A DNA stretch of 6,033 nt from positions 1 to 6,033 of the forward strand of contig NZER01000174.1 of NCBI GenBank assembly GCA_002690445.1, in the 5' to 3' direction. This document shows, piece after piece, positions 1,568-6,033 of this stretch. The stretch is from Candidatus Pacearchaeota archaeon. GTDB lineage: Archaea > Nanoarchaeota > Nanoarchaeia > Pacearchaeales > GW2011-AR1. The first letter of the stretch is position 1; each line of letters begins with the position of its first letter. The translations under genes were made by a program, and so were the position numbers. The notes under the pieces were generated by a model. That model was not told where the DNA came from. It did no database searches and worked only from the letters and a program-made list of their open reading frames with translations.

Positions 1568-1924
1568 ATGTACGAGTACAGCGCAGAAGTTTTAAGAGTT
1601 GTCGATGGAGACACGGTGGATATGTTGATCGATTGTGGATTCTCTACTTTTCGTAAGGAAAGAGTAAGGCTTCACGGTATCAATGCTCCCGAAAGTCGCA
1701 CCCGAGACAAAGAGGAGAAGAAGAAAGGCTTAGCCGCCAAAGCTCGACTTCAAGAATTAATTAAAAACACTTCTCAAAAAATAATTATCAAGACTGAATT
1801 AGACAAAAAAGGCAAATATGGAAGAATTTTGGGTGTCCTTTGGGACGAAAAGAAAAAGAAAAATTTTAATAAAATGCTAATTACAGAAGGTCACGCGGTA
1901 GAATATTTTGGGGGAAGTAGGTAA
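1568..1924 (+). CDS. Thermonuclease (Staphylococcal nuclease-like, SNc domain)
   Basis: The 118-aa protein carries the SNase OB-fold hallmarks in order: VVDGDTVD (11-18, with Asp13 and Asp15 at metal-site positions), RVRLHGINAPE (32-42, Arg34 and Glu42 matching catalytic Arg35 and Glu43 of S. aureus nuclease), and KGKYGRILG (81-89, Arg86 matching Arg87). The metal ligand Asp40 of the S. aureus enzyme corresponds to Asn39, a change I associate with GINAPE-type homologues. The family cleaves DNA and RNA in a calcium-dependent way to 3'-phosphates. No signal peptide is present, so it should act in the cytoplasm, perhaps in nucleotide salvage or host DNA breakdown. It ends right after the GHAVEYFGG segment and lacks much of the usual C-terminal helix, so it is a short form. 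The ATG at 1568 has no Shine-Dalgarno sequence; a GCGCAAAATACTCAT leader abuts it. Confidence 0.88.
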   Translation: MYEYSAEVLRVVDGDTVDMLIDCGFSTFRKERVRLHGINAPESRTRDKEEKKKGLAAKARLQELIKNTSQKIIIKTELDKKGKYGRILGVLWDEKKKKNFNKMLITEGHAVEYFGGSR

Positions 1925-2753
1925 ATATAATTTTATTGCTTTGGAGAATTTTGGCGACTTTTCCCCAAAGTTGTTAAAGTTCCTGAAAGATAATTACCAC
2001 AGAGACCACCTTAGGAAAAACTATCCAGAGGTAGTATTTACTATGGAGTACCTCGAGTGGTTCTTTTTGTTTGGGGGTTTTCTTGGCGTTCTGCTTTACG
2101 ATGACGAGTGGATAGGAATAGTGGTTTGCGCTAGAAAAAAAATGGTATTCGATCGTGAGTCCGAAGAAGTTTTTATCACTGGCCCTGTTTGTATAAAGAC
2201 TGAATTTAGATCCTTTAAGAATATAAAACTTTTAATTCAAGCGTTTGGAGAAACGATAAATACCAAATACGGTTTGATAGGGACGGCGGCGGGGGTAACA
2301 AACATGCCCTTCCGTAAACCTCCTATGTATACCGTATACAGGAATTTTAAGATTGGAATCTGTGCTAATATCAAACCCCCCAAGGAAAAAATATTTTCCA
2401 ATAGTAATTTTCATTTATCAGATACTAATGATTCTTTTTTAGACAGGCACGAGGAGGACGATGGGTGGGTTTTGTGTCATCCTCAAAAAGTCAACTTTAA
2501 GGGAAAAACGTGGAACAGGGGAGTAATCGTGTCTTATTTTTCCGCTGGGAGCTGGAATGATTTGATATACAAGGCTATAAAAAAAACTTTTTTAAAAAAG
2601 TACGACGAGGTAATGCTTTTTGAGAATTATGAAAGGACTTTTGGTAGCATGGAGGAGATGGGCTTTTCCCAACATTATCTTTATTCTTTTTATATTTACA
2701 GCGCTGTTCCCGTAAGCGATCATTATTTATATTATAATACATTTGCTTTTTGA
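1908..2753 (+). CDS. N-myristoyltransferase-like double-GNAT acyltransferase (tentative)
   Basis: The 281-aa protein shows a pattern I align by eye with glycylpeptide N-tetradecanoyltransferases (NMT). LLKFLKDNYHRD (22-33) resembles the NMT L..LL..NYVED block. YLEWFF (48-53) matches the EFL.WAL block. EWIGIVVCARKKMVF (67-81) matches the KLVGFI...P strand. VCIKTEFRSFKNIKLLI (94-110) matches the CVHKKLRSKR...LI acyl-CoA loop. GTAAGVTNMPFRKPPMY (125-141) matches the TAGV..P.P region. In the C-terminal half, YDEVMLFENYERTF then GFSQHYLYSFYIYS (232-265) mirrors FDVFNALD..EN..F and L.YYLYNW. The strict NMT signatures EINFLCVHK and KFGxGDG are not kept, and the protein is shorter than eukaryotic NMTs. 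A generic tandem GNAT is the alternative. Translation seems to start at TTG 1908, inside the nuclease gene; TTG 1941 is another option. Confidence 0.45.
   Translation: MGEVGKYNFIALENFGDFSPKLLKFLKDNYHRDHLRKNYPEVVFTMEYLEWFFLFGGFLGVLLYDDEWIGIVVCARKKMVFDRESEEVFITGPVCIKTEFRSFKNIKLLIQAFGETINTKYGLIGTAAGVTNMPFRKPPMYTVYRNFKIGICANIKPPKEKIFSNSNFHLSDTNDSFLDRHEEDDGWVLCHPQKVNFKGKTWNRGVIVSYFSAGSWNDLIYKAIKKTFLKKYDEVMLFENYERTFGSMEEMGFSQHYLYSFYIYSAVPVSDHYLYYNTFAF
2733..2738 (+). promoter_or_regulatory. Possible -10 box upstream of the lipoprotein gene
   Basis: A perfect TATAAT lies 30 bases before the ATG at 2768, inside the end of the upstream gene. No convincing -35 box is found at the proper distance. The region is very A+T-rich, so this is a weak call. 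Confidence 0.25.
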
Positions 2754-2767
2754 TGTAATATAAGAAA

Positions 2768-2965
2768 ATGAATGACTGTCAAAAGATAGTGAATCGAATT
2801 TTTATATGTCTGGTTATTATCGTACTGGCTATTTTTCTCACCGGATGTCACACTTTTCGGTACGAATGGTTACCACAAAAGAAAGAAACAAGAGTGACGC
2901 CCCCTTTTACAAAAAGTGAAGAGGAACCTTCCTCAACGGTCGACGTCTTAAAAATTAGTTTTTAA
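2768..2965 (+). CDS. Small lipoprotein (lipobox LTGC)
   Basis: The 65-aa product has a lipoprotein signal peptide: basic n-region (to Arg10), hydrophobic core IFICLVIIVLAIF (11-23), and lipobox LTGC with acylated Cys27. Signal peptidase II would leave a 39-residue mature peptide starting CHTFRYEW, rich in Pro, Ser, Thr and charges and likely extended. With His at +2 rather than Asp, outer-membrane sorting is expected by the E. coli rule. Tiny proline-containing lipoproteins in phages often act as o-spanins (Rz1-like) or superinfection-exclusion factors, but no i-spanin partner gene is evident nearby. It has a 14-base gap from the previous gene and shares one base with the next (TAATG). The lipobox implies a diderm or at least bacterial setting. 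Confidence 0.78.
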   Translation: MNDCQKIVNRIFICLVIIVLAIFLTGCHTFRYEWLPQKKETRVTPPFTKSEEEPSSTVDVLKISF

Positions 2966-3129
2966 TGGAGCCGGACTGGAAGCTTTTGTTAATGAGAATC
3001 CTCACTTGTTGGGGGCATATTCATGATGATTGGTATGAAGAGTATTGGCACAAGTTCGGCGTTTCGAAAGAGGAAGGGCGCAGGCTAGTTGAAGAGTACG
3101 AAAAATATAAAAATCCCGGACAACGTTGA
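2965..3129 (+). CDS. 54-aa Trp-rich small protein, unknown function
   Basis: The ATG shares its A with the lipoprotein stop (TAATG), a classic coupling arrangement. The product begins MEPDWKLLLMRILTCWGHIH, is rich in Trp, Tyr, His and acidic residues (HDDWYEEYWHKFG), and ends with a charged helix (SKEEGRRLVEEYEKYKN). It has no signal peptide or clear membrane span. Its 3' end overlaps the start of the GT9 gene by 41 bases in another frame. No family is recognised; the coupling at its start and the protein-like composition support it as real. Confidence 0.6.
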   Translation: MEPDWKLLLMRILTCWGHIHDDWYEEYWHKFGVSKEEGRRLVEEYEKYKNPGQR

Positions 3130-4141
3130 AAAAATATTGTGGGTTCGACCAGATTCCGTGGGGGACGCCGTTTTGGCGGCTTCAATGTTCTCTTCCCTCA
3201 AAAAAAGATTTAAAGAAGCGGAAATTCATGTAGTTTGCCAAGCTCATCTTTATGATTTTTACGCTGCTTGCCCTCATGTAACACAAACAATTGGTTTTGA
3301 TCAACAAAAACTTCTAGATTCCCCCCATTATCGAGAAGAATTGGCGACTTTATTAGGGGTACAAAATTACGACCTTTCACTAAATTCCGTCTACTCTCCC
3401 ACTTTTATTACTGATTTTCTCCATTCTAACAACGGGGCCCAAATTAAAATAGACTATAAAACAGTCGTAAAGAGCTCTCCTGTCAATCAATTAGAAATAA
3501 AACATCATGGAGATTTTATAAAGTCGTTAGGTTGTCGAGTTACCGAAGAGTTAAGTCCCCTTGTGTGGATTCCTCACCATGTCGAGATGTTTGCGGAAGA
3601 ATTTTTTAGAAAGAATAACCTAAAAACCTCAACTACCATAGTTTTGGCGGCTGGCGTACAGTTTAGTCCGAGGCTTTATGATCGTTATTGTGAAGCTTTA
3701 GAATCTTTATGTAAAGAGGAAGACTTAACGGTAATCTTAGTTGGTGTAGAAAGGGATCGTCCCGTAATAAACAATAATCTACGTAACTTTACGGGAAAAG
3801 TCGTAGATCTCGTGGGGAAAACTTCCATTCTAGAAATGGCCGCTATTATTAAAAAGTCACGCATGTTAGTAGGAGCTGATTCTGCAGCAGCTCATATCGC
3901 TTGCGCCGTAGGAACGCCTAACGCTATTGTTTTGGGCGGCGGTCACTATCGACGTTTTTTTCCTTACTCTTCCTTAACCTATAGCGCCGTTCTTCATTTA
4001 GATTGTTTTGGATGCGACTGGGTTTGTAAGTTCGACAGACCTTACTGTATTCAGGGAGTTGCACCGCGAACCTTGGAGGAAGCTGCTAGGGGCGCTTTTG
4101 AGCTGAGCAATAAGAGAATTTACTTTCAAGAATCCTTATGA
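3089..4141 (+). CDS. Glycosyltransferase family 9 (ADP-heptose:LPS heptosyltransferase-like)
   Basis: The 350-aa protein has the GT-B two-domain layout of GT9. ILWVRPDSVGDAVLAASMF (16-34) contains the N-terminal DSxGD loop (Asp22, Gly25, Asp26), followed by AEIHVVC. The C-terminal donor domain has TTIVLAAG (182-189), LTVILVG (213-219) and MLVGADSAAAHIACAVGTP (259-277), where Asp264, Ser265 and His269 match the donor-binding GxDSGxxH motif with Ala replacing its Gly. A cysteine cluster, Cys306, Cys309, Cys313 and Cys320, matches the CxGCxxxC...PxC ending seen in many GT9 members. GT9 enzymes move heptose or related sugars from ADP-sugars to LPS core in the cytoplasm; acceptor and sugar cannot be told here. 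No ATG exists; TTG 3089 is taken because starting at TTG 3137 would delete the first beta-strand. Its stop overlaps the GT2 start (ATGA). Confidence 0.85.
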   Translation: MKSTKNIKIPDNVEKILWVRPDSVGDAVLAASMFSSLKKRFKEAEIHVVCQAHLYDFYAACPHVTQTIGFDQQKLLDSPHYREELATLLGVQNYDLSLNSVYSPTFITDFLHSNNGAQIKIDYKTVVKSSPVNQLEIKHHGDFIKSLGCRVTEELSPLVWIPHHVEMFAEEFFRKNNLKTSTTIVLAAGVQFSPRLYDRYCEALESLCKEEDLTVILVGVERDRPVINNNLRNFTGKVVDLVGKTSILEMAAIIKKSRMLVGADSAAAHIACAVGTPNAIVLGGGHYRRFFPYSSLTYSAVLHLDCFGCDWVCKFDRPYCIQGVAPRTLEEAARGAFELSNKRIYFQESL

Positions 4142-4941
4142 AAAACTTACTAATCAGTTCCATCACATCGATTTACAAATCAAAAAAGTTTTTAGAGAAT
4201 TTTGTACAACAGCTACGCTCGCAAACCTTTTTCAAAAATACGGAAATAATATTGGCGGATTGCAATGAGGACGATGATGATTTTAATGTTATAGAGGAGT
4301 TTTGCAAGGAACCCAATGTTAAATACTTTAAACTAAATCCTGATCCCGGGATTTATGCGGCTTGGAACCGGGCAATCGATCAAACCACCACCAAATATAT
4401 TTCTAATAGTAATACAGATGACGTTAAGGCACCTTGGTATTTTGAAACCATGTACAATTATATGGAGCAACATCCCGCAGCTGATGTTGTTTACGGGCCA
4501 GTTGGGAAGAGCAGCAGGGAAGCGACTCCATTTTATGAAGATTTCTGCAAGGAATTATGGCAAACCTTGGAATGCAATTTGAGTACCATGCTCGTGGATA
4601 ATTCTCCTCATTGCATGCCAACATGGAAAAGGAAACTTCACCAAGAGGTTGGTTATTTTAATGAAAGATATGCTACTAAATCTGATTTCGAGTTTTGGAT
4701 AAAATGTTTGAGAAAAGGAAAAAAAATTAATAAAATAAATTTAATAATGGGCAATTACTTCTTCAATCAAGAGAGTTTAAGCGTTCATCCCGATAAAATA
4801 AAACGGAGAGACGAGGAACATTCGGAAATAATTGAAAAATACTACAAAGATCTTCCGCCGTCGGTTTTTGATTTTTGTAATTCTATTTTACAAAGGGACG
4901 CTGCCCCTCTTCCCTACGGTAAAATAATAATTAAAAGATGA
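4138..4941 (+). CDS. Glycosyltransferase family 2 (GT-A fold)
   Basis: The 267-aa protein begins with a GT2 first strand (LLISSITSIYKSKKFLENFV, 4-23), where S/T replaces the usual PVYN. Helix FVQQLRSQTF leads to TEIILADCNEDDDD (35-48) with the nucleotide-binding acidic residues. DPGIYAAWNRAI (69-80) is the hallmark of GT2 enzymes of the PGIYDAMNKGI type. YISNSNTDD (87-95) supplies the DxD-equivalent metal site, with Asp94-Asp95. VGYFNERYATKSDFEFWIK (171-189) matches the acceptor-side G.F......D.EF.LR block. Such enzymes add sugars to O-antigen, capsule or protein glycans using NDP-sugar donors. There are no membrane helices, so it is soluble or peripheral. It is coupled to GT9 by ATGA at its start and to the Cys4 gene by ATGA at its end, so the two transferases probably act together. 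Confidence 0.86.
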   Translation: MKNLLISSITSIYKSKKFLENFVQQLRSQTFFKNTEIILADCNEDDDDFNVIEEFCKEPNVKYFKLNPDPGIYAAWNRAIDQTTTKYISNSNTDDVKAPWYFETMYNYMEQHPAADVVYGPVGKSSREATPFYEDFCKELWQTLECNLSTMLVDNSPHCMPTWKRKLHQEVGYFNERYATKSDFEFWIKCLRKGKKINKINLIMGNYFFNQESLSVHPDKIKRRDEEHSEIIEKYYKDLPPSVFDFCNSILQRDAAPLPYGKIIIKR

Positions 4942-5117
4942 TCGTGAAACAAAAAACGCCAAATAAACACGATAAATGCGTTACTTGCGGTGAAGTAACC
5001 GAATACGCAGAGATGGATCATGTTCTTGCCCGCAATTTTTATGTGGAGGGGGCTGGTCAGTTATGCCAAGCCTGTTACGACAAGTTTTATCTTTGCGAAC
5101 GAAAAGACGCCAAATAA
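4938..5117 (+). CDS. 59-aa Cys4 zinc-binding protein, HNH-like or zinc ribbon
   Basis: The product has two CxxC knuckles, Cys14-Cys17 and Cys43-Cys46, which should bind one zinc. Between them is EMDHVLAR with Asp27-His28, and Lys49 follows the second knuckle (CYDK). This recalls the CxxC...DH...CxxCH..K pattern of HNH nucleases, but the usual His after the last Cys is Tyr47 and the Asn region is missing, so a nuclease is doubtful; a small zinc ribbon is safer. Residues 7-11 (TPNKH) are encoded by repeat copy 1, and the last codons plus the TAA stop come from repeat copy 2. The ATG overlaps the GT2 stop (ATGA). No Shine-Dalgarno sequence is visible. Confidence 0.68.
   Translation: MIVKQKTPNKHDKCVTCGEVTEYAEMDHVLARNFYVEGAGQLCQACYDKFYLCERKDAK
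4957..4970 (+). repeat. Start-associated direct repeat, copy 1 (exact consensus)
   Basis: CGCCAAATAAACAC, preceded by six A. It lies at +20 to +33 of the ATG at 4938 and is translated as part of KTPNKH. The same peptide frame recurs in copy 5. Confidence 0.9.
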
Positions 5118-5121
5118 ACAC
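5108..5121 (+). repeat. Start-associated direct repeat, copy 2 (exact consensus)
   Basis: An exact copy at -17 to -4 of the ATG at 5125, preceded by AAAAGA. Its AAATAA contributes the last sense codon and the TAA stop of the upstream Cys4 gene; the rest is leader for the next gene. The start of copy 1 lies 151 bases upstream. Confidence 0.9.
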
Positions 5122-5124
5122 ATT

Positions 5125-5361
5125 ATGACAATGAACCCCGAAGACGTCGAAGACAAAAGAAGCGTGGTATGGATGGGAGAGATTCCTCCGGGGAAAGAGA
5201 ACGAAATGAGATATCCCACATCAGAAGAGGTTGAGGTATCTTTATATGTAATGGAAAACTTATCAGAAGAAGAGTACGATAAGATGACAGAAGAAGAGTA
5301 CGAAGAGTTCGAAAAAGAGGCGCAAAAAATCGTGAGAGAAAGATTAAAAGACGAACTATGA
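5125..5361 (+). CDS. 78-aa highly acidic protein, unknown function
   Basis: The protein reads MTMNPEDVEDKRSVVWMGEI, then PPGKENEMRYPTSEEVEV and a Glu/Tyr-rich helical C-terminus with two similar units (LSEEEYDKM and MTEEEYEEFEKEA, about residues 46-66) before KIVRERLKDEL. It is strongly acidic with no membrane segment or cysteine. I chose ATG 5125 over ATG 5020 in the same frame, because the longer form would overlap the Cys4 gene by almost 100 bases and would translate its antiphase sequence. ATG 5131 (MNPED) is equally possible. Repeat copy 2 is its leader. Its stop overlaps the cupin start as ATGA. Acidic small proteins of this kind can mimic DNA, but that is only a possibility. Confidence 0.68.
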   Translation: MTMNPEDVEDKRSVVWMGEIPPGKENEMRYPTSEEVEVSLYVMENLSEEEYDKMTEEEYEEFEKEAQKIVRERLKDEL

Positions 5362-5705
5362 AAGCTAAAAAAGTAAATAAAAAGTGGGGATATGAAATTT
5401 GGATGGCGAATAATAAAAAAGAAAATTATTGTGGAAAAATTCTTTATATAAAGAAGGGTCATTCCACTTCCATGCATTTTCACGCCAACAAACACGAAAC
5501 CTTTTATATGCTAGAAGGAAAACTCGAAATAGATATCCTTGACACTCAAAATATCAAAAAACATACCAAAATACTCCAAGAAGGAGATGTGTTCGTTTTG
5601 GACAGACTTGTTCCTCATATGCTAAAAGCCTCTAAAAGCGATGTCAAATTCGTGGAGATCAGTACTTACCATGAGGAGGAGGATAGCTATAGGGTATACA
5701 GGTAG
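5358..5705 (+). CDS. Single-domain cupin, sugar isomerase/phosphomannose isomerase type II-like
   Basis: The 115-aa protein contains a complete cupin motif 1: Gly34, His40, His42, Glu47 and Gly54 in the spacing Gx5HxHx4Ex6G (SMHFHANKHETFYMLEGKL). Motif 2 is GDVFVLDRLVPHMLKA (76-91) with the fourth metal ligand His87. The beginning (KKWGYEIWMANNKKENYCGK) and end (STYHEEEDSYRVYR) match a family of small stand-alone cupins related to the phosphomannose isomerase cupin domain and found next to sugar-nucleotide genes and in phages. It should bind one metal and act on a sugar or sugar phosphate; the exact reaction is not readable. It is coupled to the preceding gene by ATGA and is the only gene after 4938 without its own repeat copy. 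Proximity to GT9 and GT2 suggests a role in sugar precursor supply. Confidence 0.8.
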   Translation: MKAKKVNKKWGYEIWMANNKKENYCGKILYIKKGHSTSMHFHANKHETFYMLEGKLEIDILDTQNIKKHTKILQEGDVFVLDRLVPHMLKASKSDVKFVEISTYHEEEDSYRVYR

Positions 5706-5730
5706 GGGATAAAAAATAGGAAGGAAAAAA

Positions 5731-5744
5731 CGCCAAATAAACAC
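5731..5744 (+). repeat. Start-associated direct repeat, copy 3 (exact consensus)
   Basis: An exact copy at -15 to -2 of the ATG at 5746, one base from the start codon. AGGAAGG (5718-5724) lies just before it, too far from the ATG (21 bases) to work as a normal Shine-Dalgarno sequence. Confidence 0.9.
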
Positions 5745-5745
5745 A

Positions 5746-5907
5746 ATGAAAAAAGACGTTAAAATGTTGACAGAGGTTTTGGATACAGTTTCTAAAAAAA
5801 GAAAACAACTTAATTTTGATAGCAATGCGGCCAGAAACCAAATAGCTATCGAAGTAATTCATGAATTACGAAAGAGAAAGTGCCAAATAAACAAAATTGA
5901 ATTGTGA
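5746..5907 (+). CDS. 53-aa basic protein, unknown function
   Basis: The product is MKKDVKMLTEVLDTVSKKRK, then QLNFDSNAARNQIAIEVIHE and the basic tail LRKRKCQINKIEL. It is predicted helical, basic and soluble, possibly nucleic-acid binding on charge alone. Repeat copy 3 ends one base before its ATG, and repeat copy 4 encodes CQINK near its C-terminus. Its stop overlaps the following GTG start as GTGA. No family is recognised. Confidence 0.62.
   Translation: MKKDVKMLTEVLDTVSKKRKQLNFDSNAARNQIAIEVIHELRKRKCQINKIEL
5881..5894 (+). repeat. Start-associated direct repeat, copy 4 (two mismatches)
   Basis: TGCCAAATAAACAA keeps the 12-base core GCCAAATAAACA and differs only at the first and last base. 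It lies at -23 to -10 of the GTG at 5904 and inside the 3' end of the 5746 gene, 150 bases after copy 3. Confidence 0.85.
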
Positions 5908-6033
5908 GCGACAAAGCGCCAAATAAACACAATAATTGTCGTTTTTGTGACTTGAGCCTTCATGCGATTCTGGAAACCGATGAATATGCAGTGTCTTTCC
6001 TTGATGCCTATCCTATCGCAGAATTTCACTCTC
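5904..6033 (+). CDS. HIT-family (histidine triad) protein, N-terminal part (runs off right edge)
   Basis: Forty-three codons are visible from the GTG at 5904: MSDKAPNKHNNCRFC, a helix (DLSLHAILETDE) and YAVSFLDAYPIAEFHS. The N-terminal CxxC (Cys12, Cys15) followed by a short helix and the strand YAVSFLDAYP is typical of HIT hydrolases of the Hint/HinT-like group, which cleave nucleoside phosphoramidates or dinucleotide polyphosphates. The catalytic HxHxHxx triad would lie beyond the edge, so activity cannot be judged. His42 fills the place of the conserved GH in the EGH turn, with Phe replacing Gly. Residues 5-9 (APNKH) come from repeat copy 5, forming an N-terminal addition before the CxxC. 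The start overlaps the previous stop (GTGA), and repeat copies flank the start codon on both sides. Confidence 0.72.
   Translation, partial: MSDKAPNKHNNCRFCDLSLHAILETDEYAVSFLDAYPIAEFHS
5917..5930 (+). repeat. Start-associated direct repeat, copy 5 (exact consensus)
   Basis: An exact copy at +14 to +27 of the GTG at 5904, translated as APNKH directly before the CxxC of the HIT protein. Its start is 36 bases after that of copy 4. Confidence 0.9.

Follow-up and report, generated by a model that had tools for sequence, protein, structure and literature searches.

Start-associated sequences (SAS/ESAS) of Cluster K mycobacteriophages are short asymmetric repeats, almost always in one orientation, which stand at the starts of many small genes and whose function is left unexplained in the available part of their description (PMC3203893). 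According to the same part, the SAS is 13 bp long (GGGATAGGAGCCC), lies 3-7 bp before the start codon and contains a Shine-Dalgarno core, members of certain gene families carry it in one phage but not in another, and the upstream stop codon can fall inside it (PMC3203893). Short conserved boundary sequences have also been proposed for phage mosaicism (PMC3029335, in its available part).

The element described here is 28 nt long and common to many large uncultured tailed phages, and no description of it was found in the literature (openly licensed PMC text). Going by the available part of the Cluster K account, its nearest described kind is the SAS, which by analogy would work alike, the sequence itself not being common to the two. 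As far as that text describes the SAS, both are asymmetric repeats in one orientation near gene starts, both have gene families with and without a copy, and in both an upstream stop codon can sit inside. The element differs in its length of 28 nt, in spanning the start codon and the first codons and in having no Shine-Dalgarno core; moreover, no exchange breakpoints are reported at the SAS in that part of the source (PMC3203893). As in the boundary-sequence model, to judge from the available part of the proposal, it is a conserved sequence at module borders and usable for homologous recombination, but it is one single sequence at many borders of one cluster, with start and stop codons included.

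The PeSL promoter/stem-loop cassettes of T4-type phages, reportedly described by Arbiol in 2010, are said to lie between small genes and to be tied to cassette shuffling; such a cassette is defined by an early promoter with a stem-loop. The element likewise recurs between small genes and is associated with the shuffling of cassettes, but it lacks a conserved promoter flank, overlaps coding sequence and does not keep a stem in more than half of its copies, and the T4 capsid family was found in 0 of 14 virus records carrying it. The translational operators of T4 RegA are sites around the start codons of several genes, and the position of the element around the starts of several genes is similar. 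The RegA-like system suggested by the original prediction was not supported, however, as the RegA family PF01818 was found in 0 of the 14 virus records, several of which are fragments, its sole match among 15 records lying in a MAG bin; furthermore, about half of the element copies have no start codon at the corresponding position.

The starting point was the window, i.e. the whole stretch of 6,033 nucleotides analysed, for which four exact copies and one altered copy of a 14-mer in a single orientation had been claimed. The sequence confirmed this: CGCCAAATAAACAC occurs exactly at 4957, 5108, 5731 and 5917, and with two end changes at 5881, always on the + strand, and the five offsets to start codons given for these copies agree with the sequence. 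Only one other window site has three or fewer mismatches to CGCCAAATAAACAC (- strand, 2075-2088, 3 mismatches), and six or more sites of this type were obtained in 0/200 dinucleotide shuffles of the window (shuffle mean 0.75); the five copies are beyond chance.

The unit of 14 nt had to be abandoned, the 14-mer being the 3' part of a repeat of 28 nt whose 5' extension has fixed spacing when the copies are aligned. In 96 copies whose flanks are unrelated, the conserved span covers positions -6 to +21 relative to a start-codon slot, and both edges are sharp; outside the 28 nt the mean is 0.039 bit, and three scattered positions reach 0.15-0.17 bit. The consensus is A[AT][TA]T-R[TC]G-AAC-GAA-AAA-AYG-CCA-AAT-AAA. 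An A/G-rich upstream flank, as noted earlier, is indeed present, and it is the element's own 5' part, not a flank. The slot is ATG, GTG or TTG in 59/114 copies and is without a start codon in the other 55, GCG, GCT, ACG and AGG being further common forms; these and all other counts over 114 copies include orthologues and are not independent. The 28-nt coordinates in the window, obtained by trimming 30-mers to the span conserved over the 96 copies, are listed below together with the genes around them.

4938..5117, + strand: four-cysteine protein of 59 aa, from copy 1 to copy 2; no Pfam family reaches the cut-off
4940..4967, + strand: element copy 1; its slot, 4944-4946, reads GTG in the frame of ORF 4938-5117
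5091..5118, + strand: element copy 2, slot GCG; the TAA at 5115-5117 ends ORF 4938-5117 (..ERKDAK)
5125..5361, + strand: small acidic protein after copy 2, function unassigned
5358..5705, + strand: cupin-domain protein (PF00190, PF07883)
5714..5741, + strand: element copy 3, slot AGG; ATG at 5746 starts the next gene
5746..5907, + strand: 53-aa protein, between copies 3 and 4; 5720-5891 matches the relative L059
5864..5891, + strand: element copy 4, slot ACG, within the 3' end of ORF 5746-5907 in the third frame
5900..5927, + strand: element copy 5, slot GTG at 5904, which opens an ORF running off the window end
5904..6033, + strand: ORF fragment opened by copy 5, no Pfam/PHROG match

Among the five, a start codon occupies the slot in copies 1 and 5 alone. 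Copy 2 carries the stop codon of the preceding gene, and its slot frame runs on into the next gene (ATG 5125). The N-terminus of the fragment 5904..6033 resembles the HIT type, as judged by eye only. The region 1568-4941 of the window is phage-like, with a nuclease (PF00565, PHROG endonuclease) and glycosyltransferases (PF01075, PF00535); a window glycosyltransferase used as query found no relative in IMG/VR. Positions 1-174 hold, on the - strand, the beginning of a type IV pilin-like gene (PF07963), and the G+C content is 0.45 in bases 1-300 and 0.34-0.42 elsewhere; this edge of the window is possibly a cellular piece or a chimera.

Relatives of the window were sought in IMG/VR by patterns built on the 14-mer, which gave some contigs with several copies and many with one copy, the latter probably by chance; the carriers in IMG/VR are at least those among the matches listed. 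The database patterns required CCAAATAAACA or GCCAAATAAR and a set of 112 copies required AAT, so that the invariance of the searched bases is partly built in, and the profile used later derives from the same set. In 20 IMG/VR records of up to 170 kb, selected for holding the motif and three of them with one match only, 75/76 matches lie on the majority strand of their own record, and a reversed control pattern gave 2 matches. Within a record the matches are grouped in a single cluster no longer than about 3.3 kb, with two outliers (G004 104,888; G021 73,101, the reverse match). The single orientation noted in the window is supported as one strand per record. The copies favour one strand and gene starts and are not scattered at random in strand and position, and an assembly duplication is ruled out by the independent contigs that carry the element.

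The cluster lies just upstream of a rIIA-like ORF in L007, L057, L059, L061, L064, L073 and L185, this ORF having been recognised in L007 by search and in the other six by the same sequence start. The rIIA-like gene of L007 shows 27.8-38.8% identity among the matches listed, the best being in Ruegeria and Rhodobacter phages. It suggested T4-like carriers, but PF07068 was found in 0/14 virus records and the idea was given up. Near rIIA in Ruegeria phage vB_RpoS-V10, a gene (L186 5550-6197) bears the annotation of a putative tyrosine recombinase. L185 is a contig in a Flavobacteriales MAG bin with both the element cluster and the rIIA-like ORF; viral contigs in this bin are likely because T4 capsid-type and RegA genes occur on its other contigs. 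No cultured carrier was found in INPHARED with the window as query, a 7.5-kb relative gave tRNA-Asn matches only, and element-bearing queries gave nothing convincing (E 2-6); a further such query matched Xanthomonas/Pantoea phages at E 0.007, but the 30 nt aligned there do not belong to its element.

A second group of carriers has arrays of the element before the gene of a small GAGKGD protein, with tRNA-Ser nearby and tmRNA in four loci. The putative phage tmRNAs (L058 5770-6157, L067 1886-2273, L125 4043-4462, L127 6489-6876) have an unusually long tag of 24 residues and lie near a tRNA-Ser with anticodon ACT; Rfam, applied to that of L127 out of the four, confirms it. At gathering scores, in 5 sources, Rfam gave tRNA and tmRNA only. 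Tandem arrays with a spacing of 31-39 nt and little between the copies were seen at L127 847-913, L067 4316-4390 and L065 1978-2087, and are perhaps scars of lost genes. In L116 (6433-6803) elements lie within a TSG-repeat-rich ORF, two of them 21 nt apart.

Two secondary structures were considered. A hairpin of TATTTG and CAAATA is perfect in most copies with a GCG or GCT slot, yet the stem is lost in more than half of the copies. Among the 112 copies, 58% have A at position -5, facing A, and 51% have A at position -2, facing C, in a test that is weak in that the right arm is partly fixed by the required AAT and a compensating change could go unnoticed. A second stem, pairing an RTG slot with the CAC downstream of the core, seemed by eye to suit a few copies but was abandoned.

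The association with gene starts was borne out. ORFs of 30 codons or more begin at the slot in 45/114 copies, against 57/3675 random nearby control positions. In the second frame, the TAA of CCAAATAA ends an upstream ORF in 14/114 copies against 11/3675 controls, and both roles coincide in 7/114 copies against 0/3675, the neighbouring genes then overlapping by 23 nt. Among the copies whose slot opens no ORF, 37 are followed by a start no more than about 30 nt away, a number counted without control, and 30/114 fit none of these start or stop positions. Twenty-eight gene families, partly fused through the shared peptide, have the element at the start of a gene, and 13 of them also have members without it. 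In homologues of the four-cysteine protein, as read from protein alignment A1 with two related groups, the C-terminus is element-coded in 11/13 members with an element-coded N-terminus and in 0/11 others.

The proposal that the constraint acts at the DNA or RNA level was likewise supported. In the 46 in-frame starts, CCA, AAT and AAA are each used 46/46 times, an invariance that the searches favoured by their dependence on this DNA, whereas long ORFs of the same loci use CCA in 41%, AAT in 74% and AAA in 71% of cases; by the nearer yardstick of PN[KNI] outside the elements (CCA 23/29, AAT 27/29) the excess is smaller.

When the elements were masked, 128 of 562 pairwise homology breakpoints among 29 loci abutted an element in both partners, compared with a mean of 0.31 and a maximum of 5 in 1000 sets of shifted controls; the loci were hand-picked for several copies, related phages are among them, and the pairs are not independent. 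These junctions involve 45/129 distinct elements and have homology downstream in 104 cases, upstream in 24 and on both sides in none. Breakpoints per site amount to 1.72 per element and 0.78 per other gene start, about a twofold difference, and 270/688 breakpoints lie at gene borders without the element, in a count that left the elements unmasked and is weaker than the masked set. A masked search found no cassette with elements at both ends in both loci. Junctions were also read directly from the alignment of L057 with L061, which are 90.8% identical before and 95.4% identical after a differing stretch of 222 nt in L057 and 152 nt in L061, of unrelated content and between the same two elements. 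Identity extends across the first element to the break and is restored within the second, which shows five differences in its left part and has its right part in common. In the window, 5720-5891 is 72.7% identical to L059 over 172 nt, from element to element; outside it no similarity to L059 was found on either side, where the genes are different. In related phages homology changes at the element, as is expected of a boundary sequence.

We incline, if only slightly, to the reading that the element is a start-associated boundary sequence which serves as a portable gene joint and as short homology for cassette exchange. It lies at the junction of consecutive small genes, one frame providing the start slot (ATG/GTG) and A-rich first codons (MNEKTPNK) and a second frame the stop of the preceding gene (..RKNAK, stop). 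Recurrence of one joint at many borders of a single gene cluster would give phages short homology at which to exchange cassettes, and the start and stop contained in the repeat would keep both neighbouring genes intact in such swaps. The exchange may be carried out by a phage RecA-like protein, by annealing or by template switching; a RecA-like gene was above cut-off in 6/14 virus records, several of the others being fragments. The recombinase families PF00589 (tyrosine) and PF00239 (serine) were found in 0/15 records, which may be incomplete, and the element is in this respect unlike a site-specific recombination site with its cognate recombinase. General recombination at short repeats is the simplest account, with homologous recombination at the element as the putative mechanism. 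Against the joint stand the breakpoints at other gene starts and at borders without the element, the one-sidedness of the junctions, the lack of cassettes with elements at both ends and the 30 copies outside all start or stop positions. Nor would a passive repeat obviously hold one consensus across divergent phages, and a role in translation initiation may be what keeps the sequence uniform.

That role could also be the primary one. The element would then act on translation around the start codon, recognised by the ribosome or by a hypothetical phage RNA-binding factor, and would travel as the 5' end of genes, with breakpoints as a by-product; this is a possible reading that we rate below an even chance. 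It is plausible because Shine-Dalgarno-like sites are rare in these phages (5/46 element starts, 23/212 other starts), so that an A-rich start context could matter; the start codons in 59 slots point the same way, as do the 104 breakpoints upstream of the element, where element and gene move together. On the other hand, the 55 slots without a start codon and the copies in arrays or after a tRNA gene are not explained by it, and the confinement to one cluster in most records is unlike a genome-wide regulon.

Self-insertion of a mobile micro-element, 28 nt at a time, would account for the sharp edges with unrelated flanks, for families with and without the element and for tandem copies 31-39 nt apart. 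The spreading micro-insertion was the nearest of the earlier ideas, but what differs between phages are gene cassettes bordered by the element, and no clean 28-nt insertion was seen among the junctions inspected; with all matches but one on the majority strand and no tyrosine or serine recombinase family in the 15 records, we regard self-insertion as improbable. A promoter or transcription signal agrees with the gene-strand orientation near gene starts, but the element falls inside the gene where the slot is the start codon, and the flanks of the 96 copies are unconserved save for the three weak positions, which also speaks against the promoter or processing signal at fixed distance proposed earlier; we hold this reading very improbable. 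Selection for an N-terminal tag is scarcely credible, since the MNEKTPNK-like beginning of many ORFs is written in fixed codons, with an excess narrowed by the PN[KNI] control, and the remaining copies either use a different frame or go untranslated.

The portable joint has a bearing on an old question, namely whether phage mosaicism stems from short conserved boundary sequences or from illegitimate recombination. Here one conspicuous boundary sequence stands at many borders beside borders without it, and both models can be compared within one genome. The element also suggests a testable role for the start-associated sequences of mycobacteriophages. One may go further, though we think it rather unlikely, and regard the element as a natural standard joint, with a start in one frame and a stop in another, kept uniform throughout a phage group so that recombination within it could link small genes in any combination; if this were true, the phages would draw on a common combinatorial pool of small cluster genes.
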